Source: Ulvibacter algarum
GTDB taxonomy: Bacteria > Bacteroidota > Bacteroidia > Flavobacteriales > Flavobacteriaceae
Assembly: GCA_947488905.1 (NCBI GenBank)
Contig: CANLBJ010000001.1
Coordinates: 744,001 to 808,000, forward strand
Reading direction: 5' to 3'
DNA length: 64,000 bases
Below the pieces are notes generated by a model. The model had not been told where the DNA came from, did not search any database, and saw only the letters and a program-made list of their open reading frames with translations. A program made the translations under genes and the position numbers. Of the stretch, positions 884 through 58,719 are shown in pieces. Within the stretch, counting starts at the first letter, position 1. Each line of letters opens with the position of its first letter.

Positions 884-3800
884 CTACTCTTCTACATTAA
901 TCCTAACCCCTTCACTGTGACTGCTAAATTCTGGTGCATACATACTTTGTATCGTAGTAATGCCATTACTAAACGTACCAGCGTTATTCACGCGTAAATC
1001 ATACTCAAAAACGTAAATGCCTTTTCTTAAATTGTCAAAAAAGAAGTTGGTACTCGCATCTTTTGTTGCTTGATAATACCCTAATCCGTCTTGATATTTA
1101 TAAGTAGATATTACATCTATTGGCTCTAATCCTGCCGCGCGCATATCTTTCATATGTACAAAATCCATCTCACGGTCAGAACGTAATTCTATACGTACTC
1201 TCACTAAATCGCCCACTTTTAAAGCGGTAGCTTCTGTTATTTCTGAAAGCTCCTCTCCTGTAGCTGTGTTCTTTTTTAAGAATAGTTTTTTCTTTAATTG
1301 CAGTGGTGTTTCAGTAGTTGTGATTTTATCTAAATCTTCAAAATATTGCCAGTATAAACCACCCCATGCAATGCCTTCTCCTTTTTTCTCCATCGTTACG
1401 GTTGCCATCGTTTCAGCTATTTCCGAAGTATTCCAACTTGTTTTAAAATAACCAGTTCCAGCTTCTACTTTTACGTCATCCATCGTTGAAGGGTCAATCA
1501 CTTTATCGCCTACTGTTACTTTTACGGCTTCTGTCACTGATAGCCAGTCAGTGCCTTGCAATAACAATGCGTACACCGCCTCGCTAGTAGCTTTTGTAGT
1601 GCTCCATTGGTTGGTTTGCTTGTTTTTAAGTAACCATACTTTTAGGTTGTCAATAGTTGTGAGGTCTTTGTCTATTTCAGAAAACACCTCGATCATTAAT
1701 GCTTGGGTTTCTACAGGTGCTTGGTACCAGTGCCACGATGGTGTGTTGCTCTTCCAGTACATTCCTAATTCTTCACTAGTGATACTGTTCTCTTTAAGAG
1801 ATTTTGTAATCTTTTGAGCAGAGGTAGTTTTGCCGTTTCTTTGTAAAACCAAAGCAATCATTCCTTGACTGTACAGATTTCTAGCTGTCCAGTATTGTTC
1901 CATTTGTCCTAAATAATAGTTGCTAATGCGCGTTACTTCTTTGCTCTTTTTTAGCTCTGGAAAAAAGCTACGCATATATAAATACTGCGTTTGCATCCTA
2001 CTTAAGTGATCTTTTGTGTAATCTGGTTTTTGCGTGTATTGTGAAAGTCGCTCATATTCTTTGATAAATTCTGTATCTAAATATGCAACCGCTTTGCGTA
2101 TCATTTCATCTTCTATTTCGTTTTTGCTTTCAAGCGCACCAAGCACGTCCAGATGTCCAAAACCAGACATAATATGTTGTGTAATATATCTATTATCTCT
2201 ACCACCATTAAACCAAGGCCAAGCACCAGAACCCATTTGGTTTTGACTTAATTTACGAACTGCTTCTTCTTGTTTACGTTCCATTAAGTTGAGGTCAAAT
2301 AAGAGTGCAATACGTTTTTTCTGTTCGGTTTCGGTTTGTGCATCTCTAAGCCAAGGTGTCTCTTGTATGAGTAGTGATTTTAAATCTTCATTCTTTTCTA
2401 GATTACTTAATAGCGCATCACTATTTGCCCATTGATTAAATACAGCTTGAATACGCGGGTTGCTATTGGCAATATGTGATGCCAGGCTATTTGCATAATA
2501 ACGTGCAAAGGTTTGCTCATTACATTCATACGGATACTCCATTAAATAAGGAAGCGCTTGCACAGCATACCAAGCAGGGTTAGAAGTAACCTCTAAGGTT
2601 AGTTTGTGATGTTTTAAGGTTGTTGAAGTATTGTTACTTAACTTATCTAGTGTAAACGTTTTTGTCTGGTTAGAGCGCACCCACATTGGTAGCGTTTCTG
2701 TTACCAGCATTCTATTGCTAAGTACAGGTAATGTGTTTTGTTCTCCATCACTAAAGTTCTCTGTTTTGGCGATCACTTTATATTCTACTGCTTGAATGTT
2801 TGAAGGTATATTTAATCGCCACGATACCTGTGTATTATTTTTTGTTGCTACGGAAAAGTCCTGTGTTGAATTTACATTGTTTAAGTCAATGTCAATAGGG
2901 TTACCAGTTGCAGTATCGTTTAATTGCAATATTACTTTACCCGTAAGATTGCTATCACTTAGGTTTGAAATTTTACTGCTAATAATAATGGCATCACCTT
3001 CTCGTAAAAATCGTGGTGCATTAGGTACCACCATTAGTTCTTTTTGGGTTACTGCCTCAAGGGTTTCTACTTTAGTGTTTAAGTCTTTGGTGTGTGCTAG
3101 TAGCTGCAACTTCCAGCGCGTTAAAGCCTCTGGAGTTGTAAAACTAAAAGAAATAGTACCATCTGCATCTGTCTGCAACTGCGGAAAAAAGAATGCTGTT
3201 TCCTGCAAATTGGTTCGGACTTTTACTTTTGAAAAATCAGTAGTTGACACAGAAGTCGAATCTTGAGTTATTAATTCGTTATTTGAATGAACTCCTGATA
3301 ATGCTCCTAGCATCCCCTCAGTATTTTCTTCACCTACCATATCAAAACCAGCATCCATCTCATTTGACTCCATCATTGGTGACGCTGCTTCGACACTCAT
3401 AGTTCTCATCATTTTTCTATTGCCATAATCTCTTCGTCCCATAAGACTTAAACCAAACCAATTAAATTGATCAAAATTCTGAGAATTATTATTGTAATAG
3501 TTATGATATCCATATTGAAGATATAATGAAGCGTTACCAAAACTTACTCTACCTTGTGGGCTTCCAATAGCACGATAGGTAATAGAAGGTTGCGGCTTAA
3601 AAGACCATTGATGCGGTTTAAATTGATCTAATGAAACATCATACATACTCGCTAAAAACTCTGCAGAAACTTTCTCGCCATCTGGACCTTTTATTTTAAA
3701 ACTCCACGTTTCTGGTACGCCAGGTTCTAGTTTATCTCTAAAGGTTTTGGTCTCTATACTTAGTTCTGTTGACGGCGCAGGTACAGAAACATTAAGTGTT

Positions 3801-6800
3801 CCGCCTTCATAACTATTAAAGGCTGTAAAACTGTAATGCACAGCAAAACCGCCAATGTCTTTTGCCGTTACAGGAACCTGAATAGATTTTGAGTTTTTGT
3901 TTAAAGACGTTACATACGTTTCAATTAGTTTTCTGTCTTTCTCTACAGTTACCGTTACAGTTATTGCTGCGTTAGACTTTAAAGTGACTGTTGCTTTGTC
4001 GCCAACGCTATAGGTCTCTTGATCTAAAGAGATGTCAAATAATGCATTGTCTGCGGGCGTGTTGTCTTCGTTATTAAATATTGTAGTATAGTTCTTAGAA
4101 AGCACTTCTTGCCCAAACTTGTCTTTTGTGGTTGCAATCACAACATAAGCACCAGACTCCCATTTCTTGATATTTCCGAAGTCAACTTCACTATCTTTTT
4201 CTGTTGTATCTGTCGTTACTTTTTTTGTAAAAACGACTTCGTCTTCTTCCCATTGAGAGATGTCGTTTAGACTAGTATAAGAATCATGAGGGAATAGTTT
4301 TTTAAATTCAGCTTCTGTAAATTCTTGATAATCTGGAGCGCCCCAAGGACGATTGCGGGTTGCGCTTTCTGGCGCTTTCAATTTCATAATCTGCACCGTA
4401 ACATCTGCAGATACTTTTTCGCCGTTTAGGTTTTTGGTGTAGACTTTTAATAACTGATTTTTATCTTGTTTGTCTATGCGTTGTGGTGTTTGCAAGCCAA
4501 TAGTGACCGCGTGATAGCCTATGCGCACTATAGTGGTAGTACTTTGCGTCTCGCCATTAATATCTGTGACATCTGCGGTGACTTCATAATTAAAAACAGG
4601 TTGTCCAGCTTTATCTACACTATCATCTGGGAGGGCTTTAAAATCTATGCTGTATTCGCCTTTGTCATTAGTCGTGGTCTCACCAAAAGTAATTTCTTGG
4701 CCTTCTCCATAATTTTGAGAACTTCTCCAGTAGTACCATCTTGGGTATTGCACATTGCGAGTTACTTTATACGTTACTTGTGCGTTTGTAATGTTACTAC
4801 CGGCGTAAGAAAGTGCTTCTCCAATCACCGTGATATCATCATTAAGGCGATAGGTTTCTGTAACCGGTTTAAAGTTGGTTTCAAACTTGGGTCTTTTATA
4901 TTCTTCTACGTTAAAGCCAAACTCACTTCCATAATTTTTAGAACCTCTAGAAGCTATCTGTAAAGAATAACGGCCAGTTAAACCTCCAGTAGGGATAATA
5001 AACTCACCCGTTACAGTCCCGTATTCATTAGTGGTTAATTCTAGTTTACTGAGGTCTTCATAATTAGCATTATATAGTTCTACTGTGACAGTTTCATTAG
5101 GGATAATACTAGAAGCATCGTTTTCTGTTTTTACCACAATTGCTTTAAAATAGACAGTTTGCCCAGGTCTATAAATGCTACGATCTGTAAAAAGGAAGCT
5201 TTTATATTTTTGCTCTTCTTGATTGTAGCTTCTATAATTGTAATAGTTGCTAAAAAATGCTGTATCCTTTTCATAGCTAACTTTAACAGAAAAACTACGG
5301 TAATTATCTTTACTTGCAGGGACTTTAATTTGCCCGTTTTTGTTTGTTGTGTATGTTTTTGTATTTGGGTTTCTGCCTTGTTCTATCACAAGACAAGTTG
5401 CGTTAGCAATAGGGCTTCCGTTATTACGGTTTACTACTTGTAATACAGTTTCGTTTTCTGCTTGTGTTTTTACAATTGCCAGATTTGTGTATTGTATTTC
5501 TGTGTATTCAAAAAGGCGTGGGTTGTCATTTTCTGGTGGGTTTGCAAGTACCACATATGTGCCTTGAGGTGTGCCTGGCAAAAGAAGTTCTGTAGTGTGA
5601 TTTCTATAGTCATTCTCGTCACGAAGCTGTTCTGTCCATTTTTTTACAAGCGTTAGCTTTTCTATAAAGGCCCTCTTTTTTTCTTTGTTATTGGTTTGTC
5701 TTAAAGTCTCACTTTCTCCTTCGGAAATTTTATAGATTGAAAATTGCACGTTTTTTACATTTCTGTAGTTAACTAAAATACGGCTGTCGCAATCTATAGG
5801 GAGATAACGTTCTATTTTAAGGCTAAGCGATTGTTGTGTGATATTTGCTTTAAGGCTGTGTGCTCTTGTTGCTACATAGCTTTCTGGAAATTGTTTAATA
5901 AGCTTCTCGCAAATAATCAATGCTTCTCTATGATTAAAGCGGTTTTCTTCTTTCTCATTTAATACATAGTCTTGACCTTGCTCGTGAGTGTAATAGGCAA
6001 TCTCAATGTCATAAATAGCTTTTGCATAATCAGTGCTTATTTTATTTTTTCCGCTTTGTAATGCAGCGATAAATAAAGCGTCACTATTGGTAAGTGAGCC
6101 GTTATTTTTAACAAACAACAATCGCTCTGCGTCAATAGATGCTAGCGGGATTTCATTCTCTTTAGATGCGTGAAAAGTAATTAGTTCTTGAAACAGTTGT
6201 AGCGCCCTTAGCTCAAGTGATAGTGTGTCTTTTGATGTAAGTGTAAGTTTTTTAAAACTTTGAAAATCTGCTAAATATGCATCATCAGTAATCTCAAATG
6301 CGTAGGTGGGTTTTGTAATAGAGTTTTCTGTAGTCTTGTAGAATGCTAATGCATTGTGAGCTAAAAAATCATATAAGGTGGGTCTAATAGTTTTAGAGTC
6401 TTTGTGAGAAGTAATAATAGGCTCAAAGCTGTCTAGCGTAGTTTTTTGTAGTAGTTTTTTGTTATTTAGTGAGTTTTCATAATGTGTGGTTATTTCTGCA
6501 AATAGTGTTTCTAGATCCCAGGTTCTAAAGTCTTCACTGTCTACTTTATCTTCCGTTTTAGAACGGTTATAAAACTTGTAACGGTTTGTGCTAAAGTAGT
6601 CCCAGTAGAGTTTTGCTAGCATGTTTTCTAAAACATTCTTATTGGGTGATTGTGTTTGAGCAATCATAGTCTTAAAATCATTGACTACACTTAACTTTGC
6701 ATCTTCTTCAAGAATAAGCGCAAACTTACTTGTAAACAAAAGCGTTTTTATAAGCTGTACTTGGTTGTTTTCTGAGGTTGCTTTGGTTTTAATTTGATTA

Positions 6801-6940
6801 ACAACCTCTAAGGCAGACTTAGGAAGCTTTTCTATTTCAAACTTTTCTACTTGGTTCCACAAGGTTTTGTAGTTTGAGTTTTGAGCTTGCATGGAGGTGA
6901 TCATTATAAGTGCAACAAATGAGGTCAATATTGTTTTCAT
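884..6940 (-). CDS. Alpha-2-macroglobulin family protein
   Basis: A 2018-residue secreted protein with signal peptide MKTILTSFVALIMITSMQAQ and no lipobox Cys, so a soluble or periplasmic product is expected. The N-terminal ~550 residues look helical. An MG2-type domain starts near residue 584 (RSIYRPGQTVYFKA). The A2M core lies near residues 1250-1285 (FFPQLQTDADG, then LTRWKLQLLA). The thioester-type motif YPYECNEQTF has Cys at about residue 1473 and the Gln needed for a Cys-Gln thioester, and is followed by a helical thioester-domain-like region. Bacterial relatives are thought to trap foreign proteases in the envelope. Three ATTTCCGAAG-type motifs (1419, 4172, 5719) fall inside this gene. 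No PBP1C partner gene is adjacent, unlike the pairing common in Proteobacteria. Confidence 0.88.
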   Translation of the reverse strand: MKTILTSFVALIMITSMQAQNSNYKTLWNQVEKFEIEKLPKSALEVVNQIKTKATSENNQVQLIKTLLFTSKFALILEEDAKLSVVNDFKTMIAQTQSPNKNVLENMLAKLYWDYFSTNRYKFYNRSKTEDKVDSEDFRTWDLETLFAEITTHYENSLNNKKLLQKTTLDSFEPIITSHKDSKTIRPTLYDFLAHNALAFYKTTENSITKPTYAFEITDDAYLADFQSFKKLTLTSKDTLSLELRALQLFQELITFHASKENEIPLASIDAERLLFVKNNGSLTNSDALFIAALQSGKNKISTDYAKAIYDIEIAYYTHEQGQDYVLNEKEENRFNHREALIICEKLIKQFPESYVATRAHSLKANITQQSLSLKIERYLPIDCDSRILVNYRNVKNVQFSIYKISEGESETLRQTNNKEKKRAFIEKLTLVKKWTEQLRDENDYRNHTTELLLPGTPQGTYVVLANPPENDNPRLFEYTEIQYTNLAIVKTQAENETVLQVVNRNNGSPIANATCLVIEQGRNPNTKTYTTNKNGQIKVPASKDNYRSFSVKVSYEKDTAFFSNYYNYRSYNQEEQKYKSFLFTDRSIYRPGQTVYFKAIVVKTENDASSIIPNETVTVELYNANYEDLSKLELTTNEYGTVTGEFIIPTGGLTGRYSLQIASRGSKNYGSEFGFNVEEYKRPKFETNFKPVTETYRLNDDITVIGEALSYAGSNITNAQVTYKVTRNVQYPRWYYWRSSQNYGEGQEITFGETTTNDKGEYSIDFKALPDDSVDKAGQPVFNYEVTADVTDINGETQSTTTIVRIGYHAVTIGLQTPQRIDKQDKNQLLKVYTKNLNGEKVSADVTVQIMKLKAPESATRNRPWGAPDYQEFTEAEFKKLFPHDSYTSLNDISQWEEDEVVFTKKVTTDTTEKDSEVDFGNIKKWESGAYVVIATTKDKFGQEVLSKNYTTIFNNEDNTPADNALFDISLDQETYSVGDKATVTLKSNAAITVTVTVEKDRKLIETYVTSLNKNSKSIQVPVTAKDIGGFAVHYSFTAFNSYEGGTLNVSVPAPSTELSIETKTFRDKLEPGVPETWSFKIKGPDGEKVSAEFLASMYDVSLDQFKPHQWSFKPQPSITYRAIGSPQGRVSFGNASLYLQYGYHNYYNNNSQNFDQFNWFGLSLMGRRDYGNRKMMRTMSVEAASPMMESNEMDAGFDMVGEENTEGMLGALSGVHSNNELITQDSTSVSTTDFSKVKVRTNLQETAFFFPQLQTDADGTISFSFTTPEALTRWKLQLLAHTKDLNTKVETLEAVTQKELMVVPNAPRFLREGDAIIISSKISNLSDSNLTGKVILQLNDTATGNPIDIDLNNVNSTQDFSVATKNNTQVSWRLNIPSNIQAVEYKVIAKTENFSDGEQNTLPVLSNRMLVTETLPMWVRSNQTKTFTLDKLSNNTSTTLKHHKLTLEVTSNPAWYAVQALPYLMEYPYECNEQTFARYYANSLASHIANSNPRIQAVFNQWANSDALLSNLEKNEDLKSLLIQETPWLRDAQTETEQKKRIALLFDLNLMERKQEEAVRKLSQNQMGSGAWPWFNGGRDNRYITQHIMSGFGHLDVLGALESKNEIEDEMIRKAVAYLDTEFIKEYERLSQYTQKPDYTKDHLSRMQTQYLYMRSFFPELKKSKEVTRISNYYLGQMEQYWTARNLYSQGMIALVLQRNGKTTSAQKITKSLKENSITSEELGMYWKSNTPSWHWYQAPVETQALMIEVFSEIDKDLTTIDNLKVWLLKNKQTNQWSTTKATSEAVYALLLQGTDWLSVTEAVKVTVGDKVIDPSTMDDVKVEAGTGYFKTSWNTSEIAETMATVTMEKKGEGIAWGGLYWQYFEDLDKITTTETPLQLKKKLFLKKNTATGEELSEITEATALKVGDLVRVRIELRSDREMDFVHMKDMRAAGLEPIDVISTYKYQDGLGYYQATKDASTNFFFDNLRKGIYVFEYDLRVNNAGTFSNGITTIQSMYAPEFSSHSEGVRINVEE

Positions 6941-7139
6941 GATTCAATTCTTTTTTTGAAATATACAGAGTTTCCAGTTTGTTATAAAGTGGTGTTTAGC
7001 CATCACTATATTTGAGTACGTAAAAACGATACCTTAGTTAGTTAACGATTTTTTGGAACTGTATTTGTATAAAGGTATTAAATCTTATACAATGAATGTA
7101 CCACAGTTGCGTTCGGTTTTATAAGTTTACCTAAACAAC

Positions 7140-7147: not shown

Positions 7148-7185
7148 AACTTTTAACTTCCTTTGGGCAGTGTCCTAAATTTTAT

Positions 7186-8142
7186 ATGAAGAATCTATTT
7201 CTAGTTTGCTTACTTATGCCTTTCTTTTCAATGGCGCAATCTTCTTTTGAAAAAGCAGAACAATTGTTCAAGCAAGAAAATTTCCGAAGTGCAAAACCTA
7301 TGTTTGAGCAACACTTAAACGCGAATCCTGATGACCTTAATACTATAGAATATTTAGGTGATATTGCAGGGTATGCAAAGAACTGGGATGAGGCAATGGA
7401 ATATTATGAAGTTTTAGTAAATGCAGATGAAAGTAATGCCAATTACCATTTTAAATATGGAGGTGCGCTAGGGATGAAAGCGCTTTCTATTAGTAAAATT
7501 AGGGCTGCAACTTATATAGGCGATATAAAGGAGCACTTTGAGGCTGCAGCAAGATTAGACCCAAAACATGTTGAGGCGAGATGGGCATTAGTAGAGTTTT
7601 ATATACAGCTGCCTGGTATTATAGGCGGGAGTGAGGCTAAGTCTACAAAATATGCAAATCAATTGTTAGATATCTCTCCCGTTGACGGCTACCTAGCAAA
7701 TGGATATATAGCAGAATATAGTGATCGTCCCAAAGACGCAGAAGTTTTTTATAAAAAAGCAATAGCAGTAGGTGGATCTCCTCATGCTTATGAGAAGTTG
7801 TCTGAGCATTATGAAAAGAACAACGAGCCTAAAAAGGCAATAGAAACAGCGTCTCAATCATTAGAAAAACATAAACGCAATAGTCTTAATTATCAAATAG
7901 GTAAAATAGCAGCGCAATATAATCTAGATGCAGTTTTAGGTATAAAATGCCTAAAGGCGTATATAGAAAATCATTCTGTGCGTGACGGTGTACCTAAAGA
8001 TTGGGCTTATTTTAGAATTGCCCAAATTTATAAGAACCAAGGCAAAAAGCAGGAAGCTATGTTATGGATTGATAAAGCACTTGTAGATCGTCCAGATTTT
8101 AAAGAGGCGAAAGAAGAAAAGCAAATGATACAATCTTTATAG
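7186..8142 (+). CDS. Secreted tetratricopeptide repeat protein
   Basis: A 318-residue protein with a signal peptide (MKNLFLVCLLMPFFSMAQS) followed by TPR-like helical pairs along most of its length, for example ALxxNPDDLNTIEYLGDIAG and WAYFRIAQIYKNQGKKQEAM. TPR arrays mediate protein-protein contact, here probably in the periplasm. It sits between the divergent macroglobulin gene and mpl, about 110 bp before the mpl start. Sequence gives no partner. An ATTTCCGAAG copy at 7280 encodes part of its N-terminus (N-F-R-S). Confidence 0.8.
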   Translation: MKNLFLVCLLMPFFSMAQSSFEKAEQLFKQENFRSAKPMFEQHLNANPDDLNTIEYLGDIAGYAKNWDEAMEYYEVLVNADESNANYHFKYGGALGMKALSISKIRAATYIGDIKEHFEAAARLDPKHVEARWALVEFYIQLPGIIGGSEAKSTKYANQLLDISPVDGYLANGYIAEYSDRPKDAEVFYKKAIAVGGSPHAYEKLSEHYEKNNEPKKAIETASQSLEKHKRNSLNYQIGKIAAQYNLDAVLGIKCLKAYIENHSVRDGVPKDWAYFRIAQIYKNQGKKQEAMLWIDKALVDRPDFKEAKEEKQMIQSL

Positions 8143-8187
8143 CGTTTAGCTTCTGAAACGTTAAGTGCTTGTTAGAACTTCTATTAT

Positions 8188-12583: not shown

Positions 12584-12695
12584 CTTCGGAAATGCGATGT
12601 CTATTACTCACCGGGTCAATCAATCTTAGTTTAATGAGTCAATGAGTCAATGAGTTTATAGTAGCACGGGTGTAGAATAATGAGTATTTCCGAAG
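12584..12695. repeat. Inverted pair of the CTTCGGAAAT motif around an AATGAGTC tandem repeat
   Basis: Most of the 425-bp gap 12341-12765 has no gene. It holds two terminators and this structure: CTTCGGAAAT at 12584-12593 and its inverse ATTTCCGAAG at 12686-12695. Inside the inner edges, loosely complementary stretches continue (TATTACTCACCGGG near 12602-12615 and CACGGGTGTAGAATAATGAG near 12665-12684). Between them AATGAGTC is repeated 2.9 times in tandem (12633-12655). No coding frame was seen. Confidence 0.7.
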
Positions 12696-17130: not shown

Positions 17131-17145
17131 TTTTTAAAAATAAAA

Positions 17146-17174
17146 AAAGCGCCGATATAAAATATCGACGCTTT
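17146..17174 (-). terminator. Rho-independent terminator after pruA
   Basis: The arms AAAGCGCCGATAT and ATATCGACGCTTT (one mismatch) are separated by three bases and flanked by an A-tract on the plus strand, which is a U-tract for minus-strand transcription from pruA. Confidence 0.85.
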
Positions 17175-17204
17175 CTTGATTTAATATTATTTCCGAAGAA
17201 AATA

Positions 17205-18830: not shown

Positions 18831-19145
18831 GTTGTGTTTTATTATTAATTCCGTTTTGGTTTACAGTAATGTAAATGGCTTCGGAAATATTATTTAAATT
18901 GAAATTTTTTCAGGTTGCAAAGATAGATAATCAAGTTAAGAGTTAGAAATTCAGCAGTCTTAAATCTAGGTTAACGTTTTAAGGTTTAGAGGTGTGAAAA
19001 TTTAATAACAAAATAAGCCTTCTCTAAGGTGTTGATGGTAATATTAAATAATTGAGATTATCACTCTTAAATGGTTTATTGGTCTTGAATATTGCCAAAT
19101 CTGAATTGATTATTTTTACGTATTAATTTATTTAATTTTCTAGCT
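18831..19145. other. Divergent intergenic region, pruA / NRDE gene
   Basis: No gene is seen in these 315 bp. CTTCGGAAAT is at 18879-18888. On the minus strand TATCTTTG (18918-18925) fits the -7 element TAnnTTTG and would start the pruA transcript near 18911, but no TTG at correct spacing was found. Nothing else stands out. Confidence 0.6.
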
Positions 19146-22911: not shown

Positions 22912-22921
22912 ATTTCCGAAG
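22912..22921 (+). repeat. ATTTCCGAAG motif, copy upstream of nqr
   Basis: One of 18 exact copies (either strand) of this 10-mer. Intergenic copies: 12584, 12686, 17189, 18879, 22912, 27053, 29159, 52150, 54758, 57673. Copies inside genes: 1419, 4172, 5719, 7280, 40263, 41641, 50087, 58553. TTTCCGAAG without the leading A is also at 47426. Confidence 0.9.
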
Positions 22922-24399: not shown

Positions 24400-25608
24400 A
24401 TGGGATTGAAACAGAGTTTACATAAGATGAAAATGAAGTATGAGGGAACCAAGATGGCCCCTGCATTTAATGCAATTCATACTTTTTTATACTTGCCTAA
24501 TGAGACGACCCATAACGGGACTCACATTAAGATGGCAGATGATTTAAAAAGAACGATGAACATGGTGATTTTGTCACTTGTTCCTTGTCTTATCTTCGGG
24601 ATATTTAATGCAGGATATCAGCACAATATTCAGATTGGTCTGGTTGATGCTGCTGCAGGATTTTTTAGTCCTGAGTTCTGGAACTTAGACAACTTTAGTA
24701 TTGGAGCCTGGAAGGTGCTTCCTTTAGTGCTTGTTTCTTACGGAGTAGGGCTTTTAATCGAGTTTATATTTGCTGTAATAAAAGGACACGAAGTAGAAGA
24801 GGGGTACTTGGTAACAGGTATGCTTGTTCCTTTAATAGTGCCAGTTGATATCCCATTATGGATGCTAGCTGTTGCGGTAATTTTTGGTGTAGTAATAGGT
24901 AAAGAAGTATTTGGTGGTACAGGGATGAATATCCTAAACCCAGCTTTAACTATACGTGCTTTCTTATTCTTTGCATATCCTACTTGGATGTCTGGAGATA
25001 AAGTTTGGGTAACCGGAGCAGTAGATACCGTAGGGCAACCAGATGCTATTTCTGGAGAAACTATATTAGGTAGTTTAGCTCAAAACAATGGATTTCAACA
25101 ATGGGATTTAATGGACCAGTTTTTAGGATTTATTCCTGGTTCAGTTGGTGAGACTTCAAAACTACTTATTGTAGTAGGAGCTCTTATTTTAATCTTATCT
25201 AAGATAGGAAGTTGGAGAATAATCTTAAGTACACTAGTAGGTGCACTTACAATGGGACTTATCTTTAATGGTGTTGTTTCTCAAGGATGGGTTACAGAGT
25301 CTAGTAAGTTCTTTGGCTTGATGGATGTACCTTTCTGGCAGCATTTATTTATAGGTAGTATTTTATTTGGTGCAGTATATATGGCAACAGATCCTGTTTC
25401 TGCTTCACAAACTAATAAAGGAAAATGGATTTACGGGTTCTTAATTGGGTTTATCTCGATTATGATTAGAGTATTTAATCCAGCCTATCCAGAAGGAGTT
25501 TTCTTAGCAATTTTATTAATGAATGTTTTTGCACCAACAATTGACCATTATGTGGTTGAAGGTAACATCAAGAAAAGAGCAAAACGTTTAAAAGTTAAAA
25601 CAGCTTAA
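24400..25608 (+). CDS. nqrB: Na+-translocating NADH:quinone reductase subunit B
   Basis: A 402-residue integral membrane protein with about ten hydrophobic segments. KEVFGGTGMNILNPALTIRA is the conserved NqrB block, and YMATDPVSASQTNKG is another. NqrB normally carries covalent FMN on a Thr in an SGAT motif; the equivalent position here reads DAISGETILGS (Ser218, Glu220, Thr221), with Glu in place of Ala. ApbE, encoded at 41288, would attach the FMN. The start is 3 nt after the nqrA stop and the stop is 2 nt before nqrC. Confidence 0.96.
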   Translation: MGLKQSLHKMKMKYEGTKMAPAFNAIHTFLYLPNETTHNGTHIKMADDLKRTMNMVILSLVPCLIFGIFNAGYQHNIQIGLVDAAAGFFSPEFWNLDNFSIGAWKVLPLVLVSYGVGLLIEFIFAVIKGHEVEEGYLVTGMLVPLIVPVDIPLWMLAVAVIFGVVIGKEVFGGTGMNILNPALTIRAFLFFAYPTWMSGDKVWVTGAVDTVGQPDAISGETILGSLAQNNGFQQWDLMDQFLGFIPGSVGETSKLLIVVGALILILSKIGSWRIILSTLVGALTMGLIFNGVVSQGWVTESSKFFGLMDVPFWQHLFIGSILFGAVYMATDPVSASQTNKGKWIYGFLIGFISIMIRVFNPAYPEGVFLAILLMNVFAPTIDHYVVEGNIKKRAKRLKVKTA

Positions 25609-27011: not shown

Positions 27012-27078
27012 TATATTTTCAATAATTAAATTAAAAAGTTTAAAATAGATTTCTTCGGAAATTTTAAAAAATAAAAAA

Positions 27079-29152: not shown

Positions 29153-29180
29153 TAATCTCTTCGGAAATAATAAATATATT

Positions 29181-29212
29181 AAACCGCTTTCTATTTTAGA
29201 AAGCGGTTTTTT
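29181..29212 (+). terminator. Rho-independent terminator of the nqr operon
   Basis: AAACCGCTTTCTA and TAGAAAGCGGTTT form a 13-bp perfect stem with a TTT loop and a T-tract. It starts 28 bp after the nqrF stop. Confidence 0.93.
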
Positions 29213-40065: not shown

Positions 40066-40932
40066 ATGAAAAAATACATCTTTATACTATTGGGTATTGG
40101 CTTAGTAAGCTTCTTGTTTTTTACTAGAAAAGGGGAGGTTATAAAAGATACTGCGTTAACTTATGTAACTACTCCAGATTATATTAATAAAGAAGGTAAT
40201 ACGATAGTTTCAAGAACTATTGTGCCAGATGGTTTTAAAAGAGCAGTTTATAAAGCAGGCACATTTCCGAAGTATTTACAAGACTACACATTAAAAAACT
40301 ATGGTGCTCAGGTTATTAATTATGATGGTAATCCATATATGTATCAAGCAGGTCACTTAGGTGTACTAGAGGTGCCAGTGCCTTCTAACGGTTTACAGCA
40401 ATGCGCAGATGCCTTAATGCGAATAAGAGCAGAATATTTGTGGGATAGTGGTCAAAAATCTAAAATAGGTTTTAATTTTACCTCAGGTCATTATTGTTCT
40501 TGGATTAAATATGCAGAAGGATACAGGCCTAAAATAAATGGAAACAATGTTAGTTTTCATAAAACTGCAGGAGCAGATACTTCAAAAAAGAACTTTTACA
40601 AGTACCTCAATCTCATTTACACCTATGCAGGAACCCAATCACTGTATAGCGAACTCCCTAAAATTTCTGAAATTAAAAAACTTGAGGTGGGTGACATGTT
40701 AGTGACTCCTGGCTTTCCAGGTCATATTATTATGATTGTAGATAAAGTTACTAATGAGAACGGTGATAATTTATTTATTTTTGCACAAGGAAACACGCCA
40801 GCACAAAGTGTTCATATACTTAAAAATCCAAGTGATTTAAACATTAGCCCTTGGTTTGAGTTAGAGATGGGAGCACCGTTGCAGATTCCTACTTATTACT
40901 TTAATACATCACAATTTATTAGGTTTAAATGA
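40066..40932 (+). CDS. DUF4846 family protein
   Basis: 288 residues with an N-terminal hydrophobic helix (signal anchor or signal peptide). The family pattern is clear: VPSNGLQQCADALMRIRAEY, then YAGTQSLYSEL, GDMLVTPGFPGHIIMIVD and FIFAQGNTPAQSVHIL, with C-terminal QFIRFK. The conserved Cys and His residues (QQCADA; GHI) hint at an enzymatic or binding site, but no function is established. The stop overlaps the next gene's ATG by 4 bp, so it heads a three-gene operon with the small protein and apbE. Confidence 0.88.
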   Translation: MKKYIFILLGIGLVSFLFFTRKGEVIKDTALTYVTTPDYINKEGNTIVSRTIVPDGFKRAVYKAGTFPKYLQDYTLKNYGAQVINYDGNPYMYQAGHLGVLEVPVPSNGLQQCADALMRIRAEYLWDSGQKSKIGFNFTSGHYCSWIKYAEGYRPKINGNNVSFHKTAGADTSKKNFYKYLNLIYTYAGTQSLYSELPKISEIKKLEVGDMLVTPGFPGHIIMIVDKVTNENGDNLFIFAQGNTPAQSVHILKNPSDLNISPWFELEMGAPLQIPTYYFNTSQFIRFK

Positions 40933-41291
40933 GTCAAAAGTTAAGTCCACAAGAATTACATAATCTCGCGATGAATATTGTGGGAGAAGACATGAAGTCT
41001 AAAGGCTTTGAGTTTTTAGGTGTAAATAGTAAAATAGGCAAGGACCCACAGTTTGTAGGTTTAAAAAATAAAGATCTTCACTTTGTGATTGTACGCGCTA
41101 TCTCTTATCCACAAGATGCAAATGCGTATGATCCTGTTTTTATGCAAACCATAAAACAGCATGCAAATACTTTTGAGGCAAAAACCTATTATGCAGGAGT
41201 TGGCTTAGGTCACGGCAAAGATTATGCAAAACCTGTTTTAAAAGATGAACACTACACGCAGGTATATCAAGGCCTTCAAGAAATAATATGA
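40929..41291 (+). CDS. Conserved small cytoplasmic protein upstream of apbE
   Basis: 120 residues, no signal peptide. LSPQELHNLAMNIVGEDMKS and GVNSKIGKDPQFVGLKNKDL look well ordered, and AKTYYAGVGLG near residue 92 resembles a compact alpha/beta core. I recall similar proteins in Flavobacteriaceae annotated as related to the Na+-NQR, but I cannot confirm this from sequence. Its ATG overlaps the DUF4846 stop (ATGA) and its stop overlaps the apbE ATG, so all three are translationally coupled. Confidence 0.75.
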   Translation: MSQKLSPQELHNLAMNIVGEDMKSKGFEFLGVNSKIGKDPQFVGLKNKDLHFVIVRAISYPQDANAYDPVFMQTIKQHANTFEAKTYYAGVGLGHGKDYAKPVLKDEHYTQVYQGLQEII

Positions 41292-42298
41292 GATATCTAA
41301 CAGTAATTATAGTTGCGCTTTTTTTTACCAGTTGTAATAAGCCGCAAGAAGTAAAAATGATGACCTATCAAGGTCCTGCCTTTGGTACTACTTATAGTAT
41401 TCAACTCTTTACAGATGACTACGCAGATCTAGAAAAAGGTCTTGATAGTGTTTTTTATAAGGTCAATAAATCTGTAAGTACGTATCTCTACGAGAGTGAT
41501 ATTTCAAAAATAAACAGAGGCGATTCTACAGTGATTGTAGATGAAATTTTTAAAGATGTTTTTCGTGTTTCAGAAACCGTTTTTACAAACTCAAAAGGTT
41601 ATTTTGATCCTACCGTGGGTACTTTACGTAACGCCTATGGCTTCGGAAATGCTAATGATATTATCACTTTGACTCCTAAAAAACTAGATAGTCTGCGTCA
41701 ATTTGTAGGTTTCCGTAAAGTGAAAATTCTAGCAGATGGAACCGTTAAAAAAGCACATCCTTCTGTATATTTAGATTTTAATGCAGTGGCAAAAGGCTAT
41801 GGTATTGATCTCCTCGGAAATTTTTTAGATTCAAAAAATATTAAAAATTATATCATTGAGCTAGGGGGAGAAGTACTTGCAAAAGGAAAACACCTAGGTC
41901 GTGACCAACCCTGGACGGCAGGAGTAGAGGCGCTTGACTCTAAGGTGGAGCATAGAGCTTATGATGCATTAGTTCAATTAAATAATGAGGGCTTAGCGGG
42001 GTCAGGTAATTACAGAAAGTTTAGAATAGATACCATCACGGGTAAAAAGTTTGTACATACTATAAACCCACTTACCGGAATGGCAGAAGCAAGCGATGTT
42101 ACTAGTGCTACAGTAATTGCACCTACTTGTGCTCTAGCAGACGCTTATGCAACTGCATTTATGGCAATGGGATTAGAGCGCGCAAAAAAGGTGATTGCAA
42201 GCCAAGAAGACATAGCAGCGTATCTTACTTATATAGAAGATGAGAATACCACCGGTACGTATGTATCTCAAAGTTTTAAAAATAAGATGTTGAGGTAG
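41288..42298 (+). CDS. apbE: FAD:protein FMN transferase lipoprotein
   Basis: 336 residues. Lipoprotein signal with Cys16 (ALFFTSC). ApbE blocks are clear: YQGPAFGTTYSIQLF, YFDPTVGTLRNAYGFG, VYLDFNAVAKGYGIDLL, NYIIELGGEVLAKGKH and ALADAYATAFMAMG near the C-terminus (metal-binding region). The enzyme uses FAD and Mg2+ to link FMN to Thr residues of exported domains; NqrC (Thr223) and NqrB are its expected substrates. It is not in the nqr operon, about 12 kb away. It ends 14 bp from the converging T9SS type B gene. Confidence 0.92.
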   Translation: MRYLTVIIVALFFTSCNKPQEVKMMTYQGPAFGTTYSIQLFTDDYADLEKGLDSVFYKVNKSVSTYLYESDISKINRGDSTVIVDEIFKDVFRVSETVFTNSKGYFDPTVGTLRNAYGFGNANDIITLTPKKLDSLRQFVGFRKVKILADGTVKKAHPSVYLDFNAVAKGYGIDLLGNFLDSKNIKNYIIELGGEVLAKGKHLGRDQPWTAGVEALDSKVEHRAYDALVQLNNEGLAGSGNYRKFRIDTITGKKFVHTINPLTGMAEASDVTSATVIAPTCALADAYATAFMAMGLERAKKVIASQEDIAAYLTYIEDENTTGTYVSQSFKNKMLR

Positions 42299-46530: not shown

Positions 46531-48045
46531 TTATAGTAAAGAGTTTTGTGTCATCGCTGCTGGTTTTTCTACTTTAAGTAGATCAAGAATAGTAGGAGCG
46601 ATGTCACCTAAAATTCCGTTATTAATATGTTTAATCTCCTTGTCTACTAAAATTAAAGGAACCGGATTTGTTGTATGTGCGGTGTTAGGAGAACCGTCAG
46701 GATTTCTCATAGTCTCACTGTTACCGTGGTCTGCAATTACTAACGTTGTGTACCCGTGTTTTAGTGCCGCTTCAATAATAGATTTAGAACAAGTGTCTAC
46801 AGTCTCACAAGCTTTAATGGCGGCCTCCATAACACCTGTGTGTCCTACCATGTCTGGATTTGCAAAATTGAGACAGATAAAATCTGCTGTTTCATGTTCT
46901 ATTTCTGGGATAATTTTATCACGTATCTCAAAGGCACTCATCTCTGGTTGTAAGTCATAAGTAGCCACTTTTGGTGAAGGGCACAAAATACGTTTCTCCC
47001 CATTAAAAGGTTTTTCACGACCCCCGTTAAAGAAGAAGGTTACGTGTGGGTATTTTTCAGTTTCGGCGATGCGTATTTGTGTTTTGTTGTTACGTTCTAG
47101 TACTTCACCTAATGTATCTTTAATATTCTCTTTGTCATAAACTACGTGTATTCCTTTATAAGAATCACTATAATTTGTAAGTGTGACAAAATACAATGGG
47201 ATTTTATGCATCCCAAAATCTTCAAAATTCTCCTGCGTTAATACTTCTGTAAGTTGGCGACCTCTATCTGTTCTAAAATTGAAGAAAATAACGATATCGT
47301 CTTTTTCTATTTTTGCAATTGGATTGCCGTTTTTTGTTGCTACAATTGGTTCTATAAACTCATCTGTAACGCCAGCTTCATAACTTTCTTCAATGCTCTT
47401 TACTAGATTTTCTGAAGACTTCCCTTTTCCGAAGACTAAAAGGTCATATGTTTTTTGAACGCGCTCCCATCTTTTATCACGATCCATAGCAAAGTAGCGA
47501 CCTATTACAGAGGCAACTTGCCCCGTGGTCTCTGCCATATGTTTTTGTAATGCCGAAATGTGCTTGGCTCCAGATTTTGGGTCTACATCACGACCATCTG
47601 TAAAGGCGTGAACAAAAACGTTGTCAAGACCGTAGTCATCTGCAGCTGTTAGCAATCCTTTAATATGATCTATATGAGAATGAACACCACCATCAGAAAC
47701 TAAGCCTAATAAATGAACTTTTTTGCCGGTCTCTTTAGCATGAGAAAAGGCATCTTTAAGTACTTTTTCATCCTTTAAAGTGTCGTTTGCAACGGCTAGA
47801 TTTATTTTAGCAAGATCTTGATAAACAATACGCCCGGCGCCTAGATTCATGTGTCCTACTTCACTATTACCCATCTGGCCATCTGGTAAACCTACATTCT
47901 TGCCGTGAGTGAGTAATGTTGCGTGAGGGTAGTTAGCCATCAACGAATCTATAAAAGGAGTATTTGCTTGTGCTACTGCAGAAACAGTCTCGTCTTGAGT
48001 GATACCGTAGCCATCAAGAATTAAAAGGAGGACTTTTTTGTTCAT
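46531..48045 (-). CDS. gpmI: 2,3-bisphosphoglycerate-independent phosphoglycerate mutase
   Basis: 504 residues, the usual length for the Mn2+-dependent iPGM that interconverts 3- and 2-phosphoglycerate in glycolysis and gluconeogenesis. Seen: LILDGYGI near residue 8 (metal Asp11), MGNSEVGHMNLGAGR with catalytic Ser61, the DGRDVDPKSG block, IGRYFAMDRDKRWER, and HGNSETMRNPDGSPNTAHT with metal ligands. It heads a six-gene minus-strand series ending at 42313. TATCTTTG just upstream (48050-48057, minus) fits a -7 element. Confidence 0.95.
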   Translation of the reverse strand: MNKKVLLLILDGYGITQDETVSAVAQANTPFIDSLMANYPHATLLTHGKNVGLPDGQMGNSEVGHMNLGAGRIVYQDLAKINLAVANDTLKDEKVLKDAFSHAKETGKKVHLLGLVSDGGVHSHIDHIKGLLTAADDYGLDNVFVHAFTDGRDVDPKSGAKHISALQKHMAETTGQVASVIGRYFAMDRDKRWERVQKTYDLLVFGKGKSSENLVKSIEESYEAGVTDEFIEPIVATKNGNPIAKIEKDDIVIFFNFRTDRGRQLTEVLTQENFEDFGMHKIPLYFVTLTNYSDSYKGIHVVYDKENIKDTLGEVLERNNKTQIRIAETEKYPHVTFFFNGGREKPFNGEKRILCPSPKVATYDLQPEMSAFEIRDKIIPEIEHETADFICLNFANPDMVGHTGVMEAAIKACETVDTCSKSIIEAALKHGYTTLVIADHGNSETMRNPDGSPNTAHTTNPVPLILVDKEIKHINNGILGDIAPTILDLLKVEKPAAMTQNSLL

Positions 48046-49144: not shown

Positions 49145-49153
49145 ATTATATTT

Positions 49154-49996: not shown

Positions 49997-50431
49997 TTGA
50001 CAGCAAACAACTTCACATTTAAGATTATTGTTCCTTCTGAAATTTTAACCATTTTACCATTGTTAGAAGAATTAGGAAGTGCTAATATTTCCGAAGCCAC
50101 CAGAATTGAGCGTTTACAAGAAATGGTGACTCAAAACTATGAGTGCGTAGGGCTTTATGATGGCGACCTTTTAATAGGTATTTGTGGTCTTTGGTTTATG
50201 ACGCGGCATTATGCAGGTAAAAGTGCAGAAGCAGATCACGTGATTATTACATCAGGTTATCAAGGTAAAGGTCTTGGTAAAAAGTTGATGCAATGGGTGT
50301 ATGATTATGTGCAAAGTAAAGGTTGTGTGTGGATAGAACTTAACACTTTTGTGCATAATTTTCCGTCACATAAATTCTACTATAATGAAGGTTTTGTGAG
50401 CAAGGGGTATCATATGGTTAAAGAATTTTAA
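49997..50431 (+). CDS. GNAT family N-acetyltransferase
   Basis: 144 residues. Acetyl-CoA binding motif A is HVIITSGYQGKGLGKKLMQW (R/Q-x-x-G-x-G/A form), followed by VWIELNTFVHNFPSHKFYYN, typical of the C-terminal GNAT strands. It begins with TTG at 49997: an in-frame stop lies at 49982 and no ATG occurs before residue 34. The substrate is unknown. Its 3' end overlaps that of pepE by 4 bp. Confidence 0.87.
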   Translation: MTANNFTFKIIVPSEILTILPLLEELGSANISEATRIERLQEMVTQNYECVGLYDGDLLIGICGLWFMTRHYAGKSAEADHVIITSGYQGKGLGKKLMQWVYDYVQSKGCVWIELNTFVHNFPSHKFYYNEGFVSKGYHMVKEF

Positions 50432-52006: not shown

Positions 52007-52324
52007 TTTTTATATATGATTAAGATTATATTTAGCTTTATACTAACAAATATAGTGCTAAGTCATTATTGCCACGCTAAATAATGCAAAAATAGAGTTA
52101 GTTGCTATTTGGTTTTCTACAAATGGTGTCTATCTCAAGATTATTGATGATTTCCGAAGAAAAAATTTTATTAATTATTGTCTTGTTAGAGCGTGGTTAG
52201 GGGAGGATTTTTATATGTACGACTGTAAATTGCAACAATAATTAATTTTATGCGTCTTACTAATAGCATAAAACTATATCATTATTGTAAAAATTTTACC
52301 AACCTTTTCCTTATCTTTAATAGT

Positions 52325-53924: not shown

Positions 53925-54687
53925 ATTTTTATTCTTTATTACTATTTTTTTTGTGATGAGCTCACTTTATGCGCAACAAAAAGAGCTGCAGGGTCACATA
54001 ACTAATAGAACAGATGTTGAGGGTGTTCATATTCTTAACCAGTCTTCACGTCGCAATGTGATCTCAAATAAAAATGGTGATTTTACTATAAGAGCATCTG
54101 TTAATGATACCATTTTAGTATCTTCAATTACATACATACCACAACGCGTTATTGTTTCTGAAATAGCATACAACCAAGAAAAGCTAACCATCACCCTTCA
54201 AGAAATAGTAAATGAACTTACTGAGGTGAAAATAGGAAACCAGCTCACAGGAAATATAAACACAGATCTTCAAAACATTAAAACCGAAAAAGTATTACAG
54301 TTTGATGATGTAGGTATTCCTGGTTTTAAAGGTAAACCAGCAGAAAAAATAGTGCCCGTTGTGCCTAGTATAGGTCTTGTCACTGCGGTTGATGTAGAAG
54401 CCCTCTATAAACACATAAGTGGTTATTATAAAGTTTTAAGAACTCAAAGAAAATGGGAGTCTCAAAACCAAACCGTTTCTGCTATTATAGATCTTTATGG
54501 TGCAAGCTTTTTTAATGAAGCATATAAAATACCAGAAAACAGACTTTATGATTTTATTCTTTTTTGTCTAGAAACAGAAACAATGGAGCAGGATTTTAAA
54601 AAAGAAAACTACTCAAGAGTAATGGCAACACTAGAAAAAAAAGCACCAGAATACATTAATAGAATTTTAAGCGTTAAAGAAGAATGA
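53905..54687 (+). CDS. Carboxypeptidase-regulatory-like protein, paralogue 3
   Basis: 260 residues; overlaps paralogue 2 by 20 bp. Signal FLFFITIFFVMSSLYAQ. The beta domain is conserved (HILNQSSRRNVISNKNGDFT, NELTEVKIG). The middle differs: the MEFDYEFT block is missing and a Pro/Gly/Val-rich stretch (VGIPGFKGKPAEKIVPVVPS) takes its place. The end keeps the helical pattern (FFNEAYKIPENRLYDFILFC). It is the most diverged copy, possibly with a different partner. Confidence 0.82.
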   Translation: MQKLESKFLFFITIFFVMSSLYAQQKELQGHITNRTDVEGVHILNQSSRRNVISNKNGDFTIRASVNDTILVSSITYIPQRVIVSEIAYNQEKLTITLQEIVNELTEVKIGNQLTGNINTDLQNIKTEKVLQFDDVGIPGFKGKPAEKIVPVVPSIGLVTAVDVEALYKHISGYYKVLRTQRKWESQNQTVSAIIDLYGASFFNEAYKIPENRLYDFILFCLETETMEQDFKKENYSRVMATLEKKAPEYINRILSVKEE

Positions 54688-54721
54688 TGTCTATCCTTTT
54701 TAAACAAACTAGAAGAGATAT

Positions 54722-54753
54722 TTGTCAATCGATAAATTAAGATCTTATTTTTG
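54722..54753 (+). promoter_or_regulatory. Promoter of the DUF6702-M1 peptidase pair
   Basis: TTG at 54722-54724, 21 bp, TATTTTTG at 54746-54753. The expected transcription start (about 54760) falls inside the ATTTCCGAAG motif at 54758-54767. Confidence 0.6.
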
Positions 54754-54789
54754 TAACATTTCCGAAGTAAAACACACATATAGAAACAT

Positions 54790-55299
54790 ATGAAATTAAT
54801 AACTAAAATTACAATTGTAGCCCTTCTCTTTATTGGGCTTTCTTCATTTAATGTTCACAAATTTTATGTGAGCGTAACTAAGGTAGAACACAACGCAGAA
54901 GCAGAAACATTGCAGATAATCACCAAGATTTTTATTGATGATGTAGAAGATGTGCTCAATGAACGTTACAATACAGTAACTTATCTTGATACAAAAAAAG
55001 AAACGGAGCGTGATAGAGAATTACTTAAAGAGTATGTTTTAAAAAAGCTCAAGATTGAAGTAAATGGTAAAGAGGCCGAGTTAAAATATTTAGGTGTTGA
55101 GTATGAAACTGACATAGTTAAAGCCTACCTTGAGATTGCAAATGTAAAAGAGTGCAACTCAATAGGCGTAGAGAATACTATGTTAATGGAAAAATTTGAA
55201 GATCAACAAAACATTATACATTTTACAGTAGGTGACTATAAAAGAAGTATGGTTTTAGAAAAAGATAATCCTAATGGTTTGTTAAAATTTGACGACTAA
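54790..55299 (+). CDS. DUF6702 family protein
   Basis: 169 residues with an N-terminal signal (ITIVALLFIGLSSFNVHKFY; the H-K-F-Y-V-S-V-T start is typical of the family). A beta domain follows (FIDDVEDVLNERY, VEYETDIVKAYLEI). It is acidic and probably periplasmic. Its function is unknown, but in this genome it precedes an M1-type peptidase by 61 bp and shares its promoter, so a role in that peptidase's maturation or inhibition is possible (inference). Confidence 0.82.
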   Translation: MKLITKITIVALLFIGLSSFNVHKFYVSVTKVEHNAEAETLQIITKIFIDDVEDVLNERYNTVTYLDTKKETERDRELLKEYVLKKLKIEVNGKEAELKYLGVEYETDIVKAYLEIANVKECNSIGVENTMLMEKFEDQQNIIHFTVGDYKRSMVLEKDNPNGLLKFDD

Positions 55300-55360
55300 T
55301 CTTTATAAAGCTAATAATTACAACTATTTTTAAACTTTAATAATAATCCAAATCAACAAC

Positions 55361-57664: not shown

Positions 57665-57685
57665 TATTTTTTCTTCGGAAATAGG

Positions 57686-57715
57686 AAAGCCTCGACAATT
57701 GTCGAGGCTTTTTTT
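57686..57715 (+). terminator. Rho-independent terminator
   Basis: A perfect 20-bp palindrome GCCTCGACAATTGTCGAGGC (57689-57708) is flanked by AAA and followed by T7. Confidence 0.93.
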
Positions 57716-57732
57716 ATATAGAATAAAAAGGT

Positions 57733-57850
57733 GAGAAGAAATAAGAAAGACCGCTACCGCTCAAATAAGAAAGAGTTTTAAGAATACAACGCACCATTCT
57801 CTCTTTCTTATTACAATAAACAAAGCGAATGGTCTTTCTTCTTTCTTCTC
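57733..57850. repeat. 118-bp nested inverted repeat upstream of tatA
   Basis: Outer arms GAGAAGAAATAAGAAAGACC (57733-57752) and GGTCTTTCTTCTTTCTTCTC (57831-57850) pair at 18 of 20 positions. Inner arms AATAAGAAAGAG (57764-57775) and CTCTTTCTTATT (57801-57812) pair perfectly, leaving a 25-nt loop. ACCGCT / AGCG between them extend the pairing. No coding frame fits. Confidence 0.8.
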
Positions 57851-57876
57851 TTTTGTATTTATACTATCTTTGCCTT

Positions 57877-58164
57877 ATGTTAATGCAACTTCATTTTCTC
57901 TTTATAGGTGGTACAGAAATAGGTTTTATCCTATTTATTGTGCTATTGGTTTTTGGTGCAGATAAAATACCAGAAATAGCAAGAGGTTTAGGAAAAACAA
58001 TGAAGCAGATACGTAACGCCACAGATGATATTAAGTCTGAAATCACCAAAAGTGCAAGTAAAAACGGCTTAGATCTTGACATCACAAAAGATGTTCGCAA
58101 AGAGATAGACAAGGTAAAAGAAGAAGTTGAAGAGATTACTGGAGCTGTTAAGAGAAAATTCTAA
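57877..58164 (+). CDS. tatA: Twin-arginine translocase subunit TatA-type protein
   Basis: 95 residues from ATG 57877; an in-frame ATG at 57829 would add 16 residues from within the palindrome. One N-terminal membrane helix (GTEIGFILFIVLLVFGADKI), then the hallmark PEIARGLGKTMKQIRNATDD amphipathic helix and a charged helical tail. It forms the pore ring for folded Tat substrates. TatC is not in the window. The stop abuts the PAP2 ATG. Confidence 0.9.
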   Translation: MLMQLHFLFIGGTEIGFILFIVLLVFGADKIPEIARGLGKTMKQIRNATDDIKSEITKSASKNGLDLDITKDVRKEIDKVKEEVEEITGAVKRKF

Positions 58165-58719
58165 ATGCTTGAAACCCTAAAAGCTTGGGATAGAGAGTTG
58201 CTGGTTTGGCTCAATAGTATTGGTGTTGAAAACTGGGACAACTTTTGGTTATTTATCACTCATATAGAATCTTGGTTTGCATTATTCATTTACTTTTTCA
58301 TTCTTATTTTCTATTTCTACGGTTTTAAAAAAGGCTGTATAGTATTGTTAGGTCTATTTGCTACAGTAGTTTTTACTATTGTCTTTACAGACTTTGCAAA
58401 AGACTTTGTAGCAAGATTGAGACCCAATAATGTAGAAACATTAGGTGAGTTTATTCGCGTATTACAAAAACCAACAAACTACAGTTTCTTTTCAGGTCAC
58501 GCATCTTCTAGTTTTGCAATCACGACCTATGTAGTGTTGTCACTTCGGAAATATCATAAATATGTTTACTTCTTCTATACTTGGCCATTGTTATTTGTCT
58601 TGAGTAGAATTTATGTTGGCGTGCATTATCCTAGTGATATATTTGTTGGAGCTTTAGTTGGTACAAGTATAGCTGTTGGTATATTTGGTTTGTTAAGAAA
58701 AGTAAAATACTTATCTTAG
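58165..58719 (+). CDS. PAP2 family membrane phosphatase
   Basis: 184 residues, five to six hydrophobic helices. The three PAP2 signature motifs are present: KDFVARLRPNN, FFSGHASSSFA and SRIYVGVHYPSDIFVGAL, with the His pair and Asp that form the active site. It probably dephosphorylates undecaprenyl pyrophosphate or phosphatidic-type lipids on the outer face of the inner membrane. Starts directly after the tatA stop (no gap), so it is co-expressed. Confidence 0.9.
   Translation: MLETLKAWDRELLVWLNSIGVENWDNFWLFITHIESWFALFIYFFILIFYFYGFKKGCIVLLGLFATVVFTIVFTDFAKDFVARLRPNNVETLGEFIRVLQKPTNYSFFSGHASSSFAITTYVVLSLRKYHKYVYFFYTWPLLFVLSRIYVGVHYPSDIFVGALVGTSIAVGIFGLLRKVKYLS

Follow-up and report, generated by a model that had tools for sequence, protein, structure and literature searches.

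Exactly 18 copies of the 10-mer ATTTCCGAAG lie on both strands of the 64 kb stretch of flavobacterial DNA analysed here (the window), with 100 dinucleotide shuffles giving a mean of 0.05 copies and a maximum of 1, and the word is a real, genus-centred and strongly structured genomic signal. By most of the sequence tests possible the motif resembles the uptake signal sequences (USS) of the Pasteurellaceae, and is most likely an uptake signal. We think it fairly probable that ATTTCCGAAG with its AT-rich flanks is an uptake-signal-like sequence by which competence machinery would recognise DNA of its own kind.

The initial annotation of the window had reported 18 exact copies on both strands, a count confirmed here and far above the 0.05 expected from the shuffles. 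Of its coordinates 17 of 18 are right, with the copy placed at 58553 found at 58543 on the reverse strand, and the 9-mer it gave at 47426 is real, forming part of the one-mismatch 10-mer TTTTCCGAAG at 47425. Its statement that ten copies are intergenic also holds, with 10 of the 18 outside genes against 1.7 expected on a simple longest open reading frame (ORF) gene call. When window words are ranked against an order-3 Markov model, the highest-ranked word lies within ATTTCCGAAG or contains it for every length between 6 and 11.

Abundance, core and flanks

The genome holding the window (G000; 3,548,518 bases in 33 contigs) contains 605 copies, 308 forward and 297 reverse, with the reversed word, used as a control, occurring 21 times. 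On 848 kb of its contig 1, 167 copies are present where Markov models of order 2–5, fitted after masking of the motif, predict 0.3–3.4, placing the word far above the genome-wide expectation with which the initial annotation had proposed to compare it. Proteins of the window include T9SS sorting domains and NqrA, and the closest named relative of the protein encoded at 24400–25608, judged by its position to be probably NqrB, is from Patiriisocius marinus (92%). We infer that the window genome is another species in the genus of P. marinus, and that G002 of our set is P. marinus itself, in which 178 forward and 167 reverse copies are found (reversed control 6 and 8).

Eleven genomes of this genus were compared, with high counts in G001 (833), G000 (605), G009 (474), G002 (345) and G005 (239; 59% complete), equivalent to a density of ~0.1–0.25 copies per kb. 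Absence from relatives had been named at the outset as grounds for refutation; the word is abundant in four genomes of the genus besides that of the window, and near background in the other six (6–34 copies against 9–18 for the reversed control), which are 1.7–2.1 Mb in size and 77–90% complete. Across 299 genomes of the family, several in other genera reach 100–350 copies of the bare 10-mer. A family-wide signal based on such counts (as in G037, G263, G288 and G022) was rejected, with flank fractions there near composition at 2–7%, and in G037 and G263 the 8-mer TTCCGAAG shows no intergenic excess, flanks or pair pattern. The flank-extended form TNANATTTCCGAAGNNA, searched for in 397 genomes, is frequent only in this genus, with 322, 218 and 137 copies in its three drawn genomes and next-highest counts of 41, 39 and 37. 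Psychroserpens is intermediate, with 358 copies in Psychroserpens burtonensis (G415), 238 in G414 and 176 in G055, and a flank fraction of 16–23% in the two genomes tested, G055 and G276 (counts equal to those of G414); no pair pattern was found in this genus. Separately, a 400 kb sample of G293, from another genus, holds 168 copies of TTCCGAAG against 22.9 expected, of which 9 are intergenic, with no pair pattern.

In the 848 kb of G000 the core occurs in 167 exact and 184 one-mismatch copies, the latter spread over 30 variants of which the commonest has 44 copies (reversed control 5 against 107), and in G001 in 207 exact and 216 one-mismatch copies (control 4 against 88). The exact core is thus far commoner than any single variant, but the one-mismatch copies together about equal the exact ones (184 against 167). 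Variation falls mainly at positions 1, 6 and 8, with some at position 4 in G001. HIP1 is a palindromic octamer; the core of ATTTCCGAAG is non-palindromic, leaving the HIP1-like suggestion of the initial annotation unsupported.

AT-rich segments surround the core, a hallmark shared with USS, and are alike in G000 (94 copies) and G001 (110 copies, and also 207), being T-rich at about −16 to −12, with T at −4 and A at −2, and A-rich from +11 to +18. Copies with T−4, A−2 and A+12 together make up 36, 39, 40, 30 and 28% of the total across the five high-count genomes, compared with ~4% expected, by our own arithmetic, on composition alone. With genes called as the longest ORFs that do not overlap and have 80 codons or more, which makes all intergenic and coding figures approximate, 43 of 94 copies in G000 are intergenic against 9.4 expected, and 86 of 207 in G001 against 19.7, an excess of ~4 fold; over the longer G000 stretch the figure is 59 of 167, with a non-coding share of 9.2%. 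Coding copies yield varied peptides, including SSEI, ISEA, FFGN and TFPK. Separately, single copies in tandem gene gaps tend to point opposite to the genes on either side, by 21 to 9 in G000 and 22 to 13 in G001.

Strand, spacing, pairs and turnover

Copies show no orientation bias along the chromosome, apart from one 120 kb exception in P. marinus. With replication halves inferred from GC skew, G000 contig 1 carries 37+/39− in its first 400 kb, where the skew is mostly negative, and 46+/45− in the remaining 448 kb, where it is mostly positive, whilst G001 carries 68+/80− in its first 500 kb (negative skew) and 26+/33− in the rest. In G001 the copies are spaced more evenly than chance would give (p 0.002), a tendency that is weaker in G000 (p 0.09).

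Neighbouring copies are strongly arranged with respect to one another. For 389 copies pooled from G000, G001 and G002, with strand labels shuffled over fixed positions, outward-pointing pairs (CTTCGGAAAT...ATTTCCGAAG) within 1 kb number 56 against 20.5 expected, and same-direction pairs 13 against 41.9, with pair counts beyond 2 kb matching expectation. The pattern is strongest in G001, where 40 outward pairs stand against 13.8 expected and 7 same-direction pairs against 28.2, and is weaker but alike in G000 (15 against 6.2, and 5 against 12.5). Pairs from G000 and G001 number 25 outward, 5 inward and 3 same-direction where both copies lie in genes, 23, 5 and 5 where both are intergenic, and 7, 4 and 4 where they are mixed. 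Irrespective of orientation, pairs at 400–1000 bp fall below uniform placement (9 against 19.7 in G000, 19 against 34.1 in G001), and those closer than 130 bp exceed it (11 against 4.3, and 24 against 7.4). At spacings of 20–80 bp the five whole high-count genomes hold 65 outward and 6 inward pairs, compared with 6 and 4 in nine other genomes. Of these 65 outward distances, 23 are at 24–27 bp and none at 28–33 bp, with the pairs at 24–27 bp forming near-palindromes of 34–37 bp that could fold.

Several other ideas on the motif were discarded. Helical phasing of pair distances is weak (p 0.02, 42 distances), and a dyad with a degenerate second half is not the unit, with no partner half-site present beside single copies. 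A reverse-strand hairpin, C(TTCG)G, would require A at +10, where A is found at 35–39%, near background, and TTAAW before the core, considered as a pair-specific mark, is about as frequent in single copies (72 of 309) as in paired ones (18 of 65).

Alignments between G000 and G001 have ~73% identity. Among copies lying inside alignments, the only ones that can be judged, 7 of 37 from G000 are exact in G001, compared with 5.8% of control 10-mers, and 7 of 35 from G001 are exact in G000, compared with 4.6%. At the same time 18 of the 37 aligned G000 copies have at least four differences in G001, more than the controls (~35%), which indicates that copies sit in weakly constrained DNA and turn over. 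Only 2 of 37 (G000) and 0 of 35 (G001) stand opposite a gap of at least 5, which argues for origin by substitution and not by insertion, and 7 of the 35 aligned G001 copies stand opposite ATTTC[AT]GAA[AG] in G000. This second form, also given as ATTTCAGAA(A), is itself over-represented, with similar flanks and a 2- to 3.6-fold intergenic excess.

An uptake signal and its alternatives

The available text of PMC1626085 gives seven hallmarks for USS and for the DNA uptake sequences (DUS) of Neisseriaceae: a strict consensus, absence of orientation bias, regularly spaced copies, an excess in non-coding DNA, opposite pairs at close range, AT flanks (for USS) and an origin through substitution. Of the seven, five are seen here, with regular spacing clear in one species and the consensus sharp only against single variants, and the suggestion of an uptake sequence made in the initial annotation therefore fits well. 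As in the Pasteurellaceae USS (Haemophilus influenzae AAGTGCGGT), whose core of 9–10 bp is strict, AT-rich flanks and no overall strand bias are combined with a non-coding excess alongside many coding copies, close opposite pairs and substitution origin (PMC1626085); the core found here is sharp against any single variant. The same source describes USS spacing as more regular than random, which is also so for the motif in G001 and more weakly in G000. Unlike USS, the motif has another core, belongs to another phylum, is less dense, has a pair pattern reaching ~1 kb, and has AT segments flanking the core at either end, where those of USS lie on the 3′ side. In most Pasteurellaceae tested, with exceptions, forward copies lean to the 3′ end of genes and reverse copies to the 5′ end (PMC2346458, available text), which is also an outward arrangement; here the one departure is a shortage of reverse copies in the final fifth of genes (14 of 124), with no clear lean of forward copies. 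Overlapping USS pairs in H. influenzae number 69 −/+ and 40 +/− (PMC7811141, available text). The DUS (GCCGTCTGAA) is likewise a lineage-specific 10-mer with hundreds of copies and no orientation bias, but differs in having no flanking motifs, as far as the text of PMC1626085 goes, and a known receptor, ComP (PMC3868556, available text).

The host possesses candidate machinery, with searches for ComEC and for a CarboxypepD_reg/DUF5689 pair both finding matches. In Riemerella anatipestifer a pair of this type is needed for transformation, and a screen there found proteins without a match in well-known transformation machinery (PMC8459023, available text). A CarboxypepD_reg gene lies directly upstream of the DUF5689 gene in G000, and likewise in G001 with a CarboxypepD_reg score below the cut-off; G000 and G009 carry a longer protein with two DUF5689 matches. 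Across the genus 10 of 11 genomes have a ComEC match, the exception being G005, and 10 of 11 a DUF5689 match, 9 of them over the cut-off, with G008 lacking one and G005 below the cut-off. Riemerella columbina, also of the Flavobacteriales, favours its own DNA (PMC7965970), which is in keeping with an uptake signal, and Riemerella transformation resembles the motif host in its gene order and its ComEC. It differs in that, in the available text on R. columbina, no uptake word is identified and the k-mer table holds A/T-rich words only. Beside the pair, in divergent orientation, stands an Exo_endo_phos_3-type gene (L097:14065-15366 and L121:177-1277), with 75% identity between the two species, whose family was scanned for in G000 only; any part in uptake is purely conjectural.

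If the motif is an uptake signal, a receptor of the uptake machinery would bind it, and DNA bearing it would enter and recombine more often, such that copies arising by point mutation accumulate. The abundance of the motif would be explained by this drive, which keeps point-mutation copies in weakly constrained DNA. The tract taken up or recombined would run ~1 kb to the side to which 5′-ATTTCCGAAG-3′ points, and a copy inside the tract of another would gain little, making same-direction and inward neighbours redundant and leaving outward ones free; import on the pointed side of each copy would then account for part of the pair pattern. This fuller version, in which a Bacteroidota uptake signal is read by Riemerella-like competence machinery with each copy acting one way for ~1 kb, is put forward only tentatively.

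A number of observations weigh against these interpretations. A one-direction model expects inward pairs to be the rarest, whereas same-direction pairs are; measured against shuffled strands, inward pairs show no clear deficit within 1 kb (14 against 20.6 expected) and at 1–1.5 kb are in excess (16 against 7.9, p 0.0005). The outward surplus at 24–27 and ~40–77 bp exceeds what a lack of redundancy predicts, and at 24–77 bp calls for a further factor, for example two copies acting together; in Haemophilus, USS paired at close range did not increase uptake (PMC7811141, available text). The second form ATTTCAGAA(A) has no pair pattern despite its like flanks and intergenic excess. The ratio of one-mismatch to exact copies (184 to 167) is less extreme than that published for USS, and USS and DUS reach ~1 per kb in Haemophilus and Neisseria, in the sources available, above the density found here. 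Contig 1 of G002 carries 13+ and 2− copies at 940–1060 kb, which may be chance in a genome balanced overall at 178/167. Genomes with low counts likewise have ComEC and DUF5689, so gene presence does not account for the motif, and the high-count G005, 59% complete, has no ComEC match and DUF5689 only below the cut-off; receptor specificity or loss of competence might account for the low-count genomes. Depletion in acquired DNA is unsupported, with eight proteins scanned in the largest motif-free gap (23.5 kb, G001) ordinary and giving no indication of a mobile element there.

Among the alternatives, the motif could be a site bound by an abundant protein that organises or segregates the chromosome and touches pairs of sites. 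The structured AT flanks, the outward pairs at 24–27 bp with wider ones weakly phased (p 0.02), and the even spacing in one species are in keeping with such a site. The core is, however, sharper than usual for intracellular regulators, following an argument in the available text of PMC1626085, copy number inside one genus runs from near background up to 833, and single copies have no partner half-site, and we consider this explanation unlikely.

A Chi-like recombination signal, read one way by an AddAB/RecBCD-type enzyme after a double-strand break, appears improbable. Chi and KOPS are likewise short, oriented, over-represented words, and the pair pattern, its ~1 kb reach and the presence of copies in coding and intergenic DNA alike suit a polar signal. 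Chi and KOPS are skewed to one replication strand, whereas the motif has no such bias in the two skew halves of G000 (37+/39− and 46+/45−), although symmetric use at two-ended breaks needs none. Described Chi sequences are shorter, and Chi alone would not favour outward over inward pairs, found at 65 to 6. The interpretation offered by the initial annotation is partly supported: of its three suggestions the uptake sequence fits well, HIP1 is not supported and Chi-type polarity relative to replication is not seen.

A transcription signal, whether a terminator or a regulator site, might be suggested by the foldable near-palindromes of 34–37 bp and the intergenic excess. This is very unlikely, with called genes containing 108 of the 167 G000 copies and 121 of the 207 from G001, and with intergenic copies spread over tandem, divergent and convergent gaps roughly in proportion to the DNA available. 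Predicted terminators adjoin but do not overlap window copies in the 18 kb scanned, and the core is followed by A-rich DNA, not the T-run of an intrinsic terminator. The sharp consensus would also suit a motif left behind or targeted by a mobile or repeated element; such an origin is scarcely credible given the weak conservation past the core and the rarity of an inserted block in aligned homologues (gaps of at least 5 face 2 of 37 and 0 of 35 copies).

Window copies, other repeats and significance

The positions and contexts of the window copies are listed in Table 1. The copy at 27053 is identical in P. marinus (L009), and is the only one alignable there among five window copies.

Table 1. 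Exact and one-mismatch copies of the motif in the window, with gene context.
Element	Position	Strand	Context
ATTTCCGAAG	1419..1428	+	inside ORF 884-6940(-), alpha-2-macroglobulin-like
ATTTCCGAAG	4172..4181	+	inside ORF 884-6940(-)
ATTTCCGAAG	5719..5728	-	inside ORF 884-6940(-)
ATTTCCGAAG	7280..7289	+	inside ORF 7186-8142(+), TPR protein
ATTTCCGAAG	12584..12593	-	intergenic; left half of outward-pointing pair, 102 bp apart
ATTTCCGAAG	12686..12695	+	intergenic; right half of outward-pointing pair with 12584
ATTTCCGAAG	17189..17198	+	intergenic; beside, and separate from, predicted terminator-like hairpin 17143-17177
ATTTCCGAAG	18879..18888	-	intergenic, divergent genes
ATTTCCGAAG	22912..22921	+	intergenic, divergent genes
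ATTTCCGAAG	27053..27062	-	intergenic, downstream of nqrA
ATTTCCGAAG	29159..29168	-	intergenic; beside, and separate from, predicted terminator-like hairpin 29181-29209
ATTTCCGAAG	40263..40272	+	inside ORF 40066-40932(+), DUF4846
ATTTCCGAAG	41641..41650	-	inside ORF 41288-42298(+), ApbE
TTTTCCGAAG (one mismatch)	47425..47434	+	differs at position 1, an often-varying position
ATTTCCGAAG	50087..50096	+	inside ORF 49997-50431(+)
ATTTCCGAAG	52150..52159	+	intergenic, divergent genes
ATTTCCGAAG	54758..54767	+	intergenic
ATTTCCGAAG	57673..57682	-	intergenic
ATTTCCGAAG	58543..58552	-	inside ORF 58165-58719(+)

Other repeats were met alongside the motif. The order-3 Markov ranking of 12-mers in the window is headed by a tandem array of AACTGC, 8.8 units without mismatch at 823-875, just past the 3′ end of the alpha-2-macroglobulin-like ORF 884-6940(-). 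A second dispersed repeat, TGTCnnnTCGAGCGCAGTCGAnnn, is a GC-rich hairpin found on G000 contig 1 (for example at ~122496, 216331 and 811995), with several in inverted pairs, and in G001, G002 and G293, and is absent from the window; it resembles a palindrome of the REP/RAYT type. In G002 contig 1 at 940–1060 kb, ATTTCGGCT is over-represented, with 15 copies against 0.84 expected in 120 kb; it is also present in G001 and rare in G000, and is perhaps a dialect.

To our knowledge, uptake sequences are described only from the Pasteurellaceae and Neisseriaceae. Literature searches gave no uptake sequence for Bacteroidota, and a search on the word itself no title on such a signal, among the matches listed, and no earlier description of a pair pattern at a range of ~1 kb was met in a limited search. 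The pair pattern is a new feature to look for in the genomes of Haemophilus and Neisseria, and bears on how uptake words accumulate. Were the one-direction reading true, neighbour exclusion would reveal, from sequence only, which way imported DNA extends and how long it is. With a concrete word to hand, and cultured species in the genus, a few oligonucleotides would suffice to test self-recognition by flavobacterial competence machinery, which is still poorly understood.

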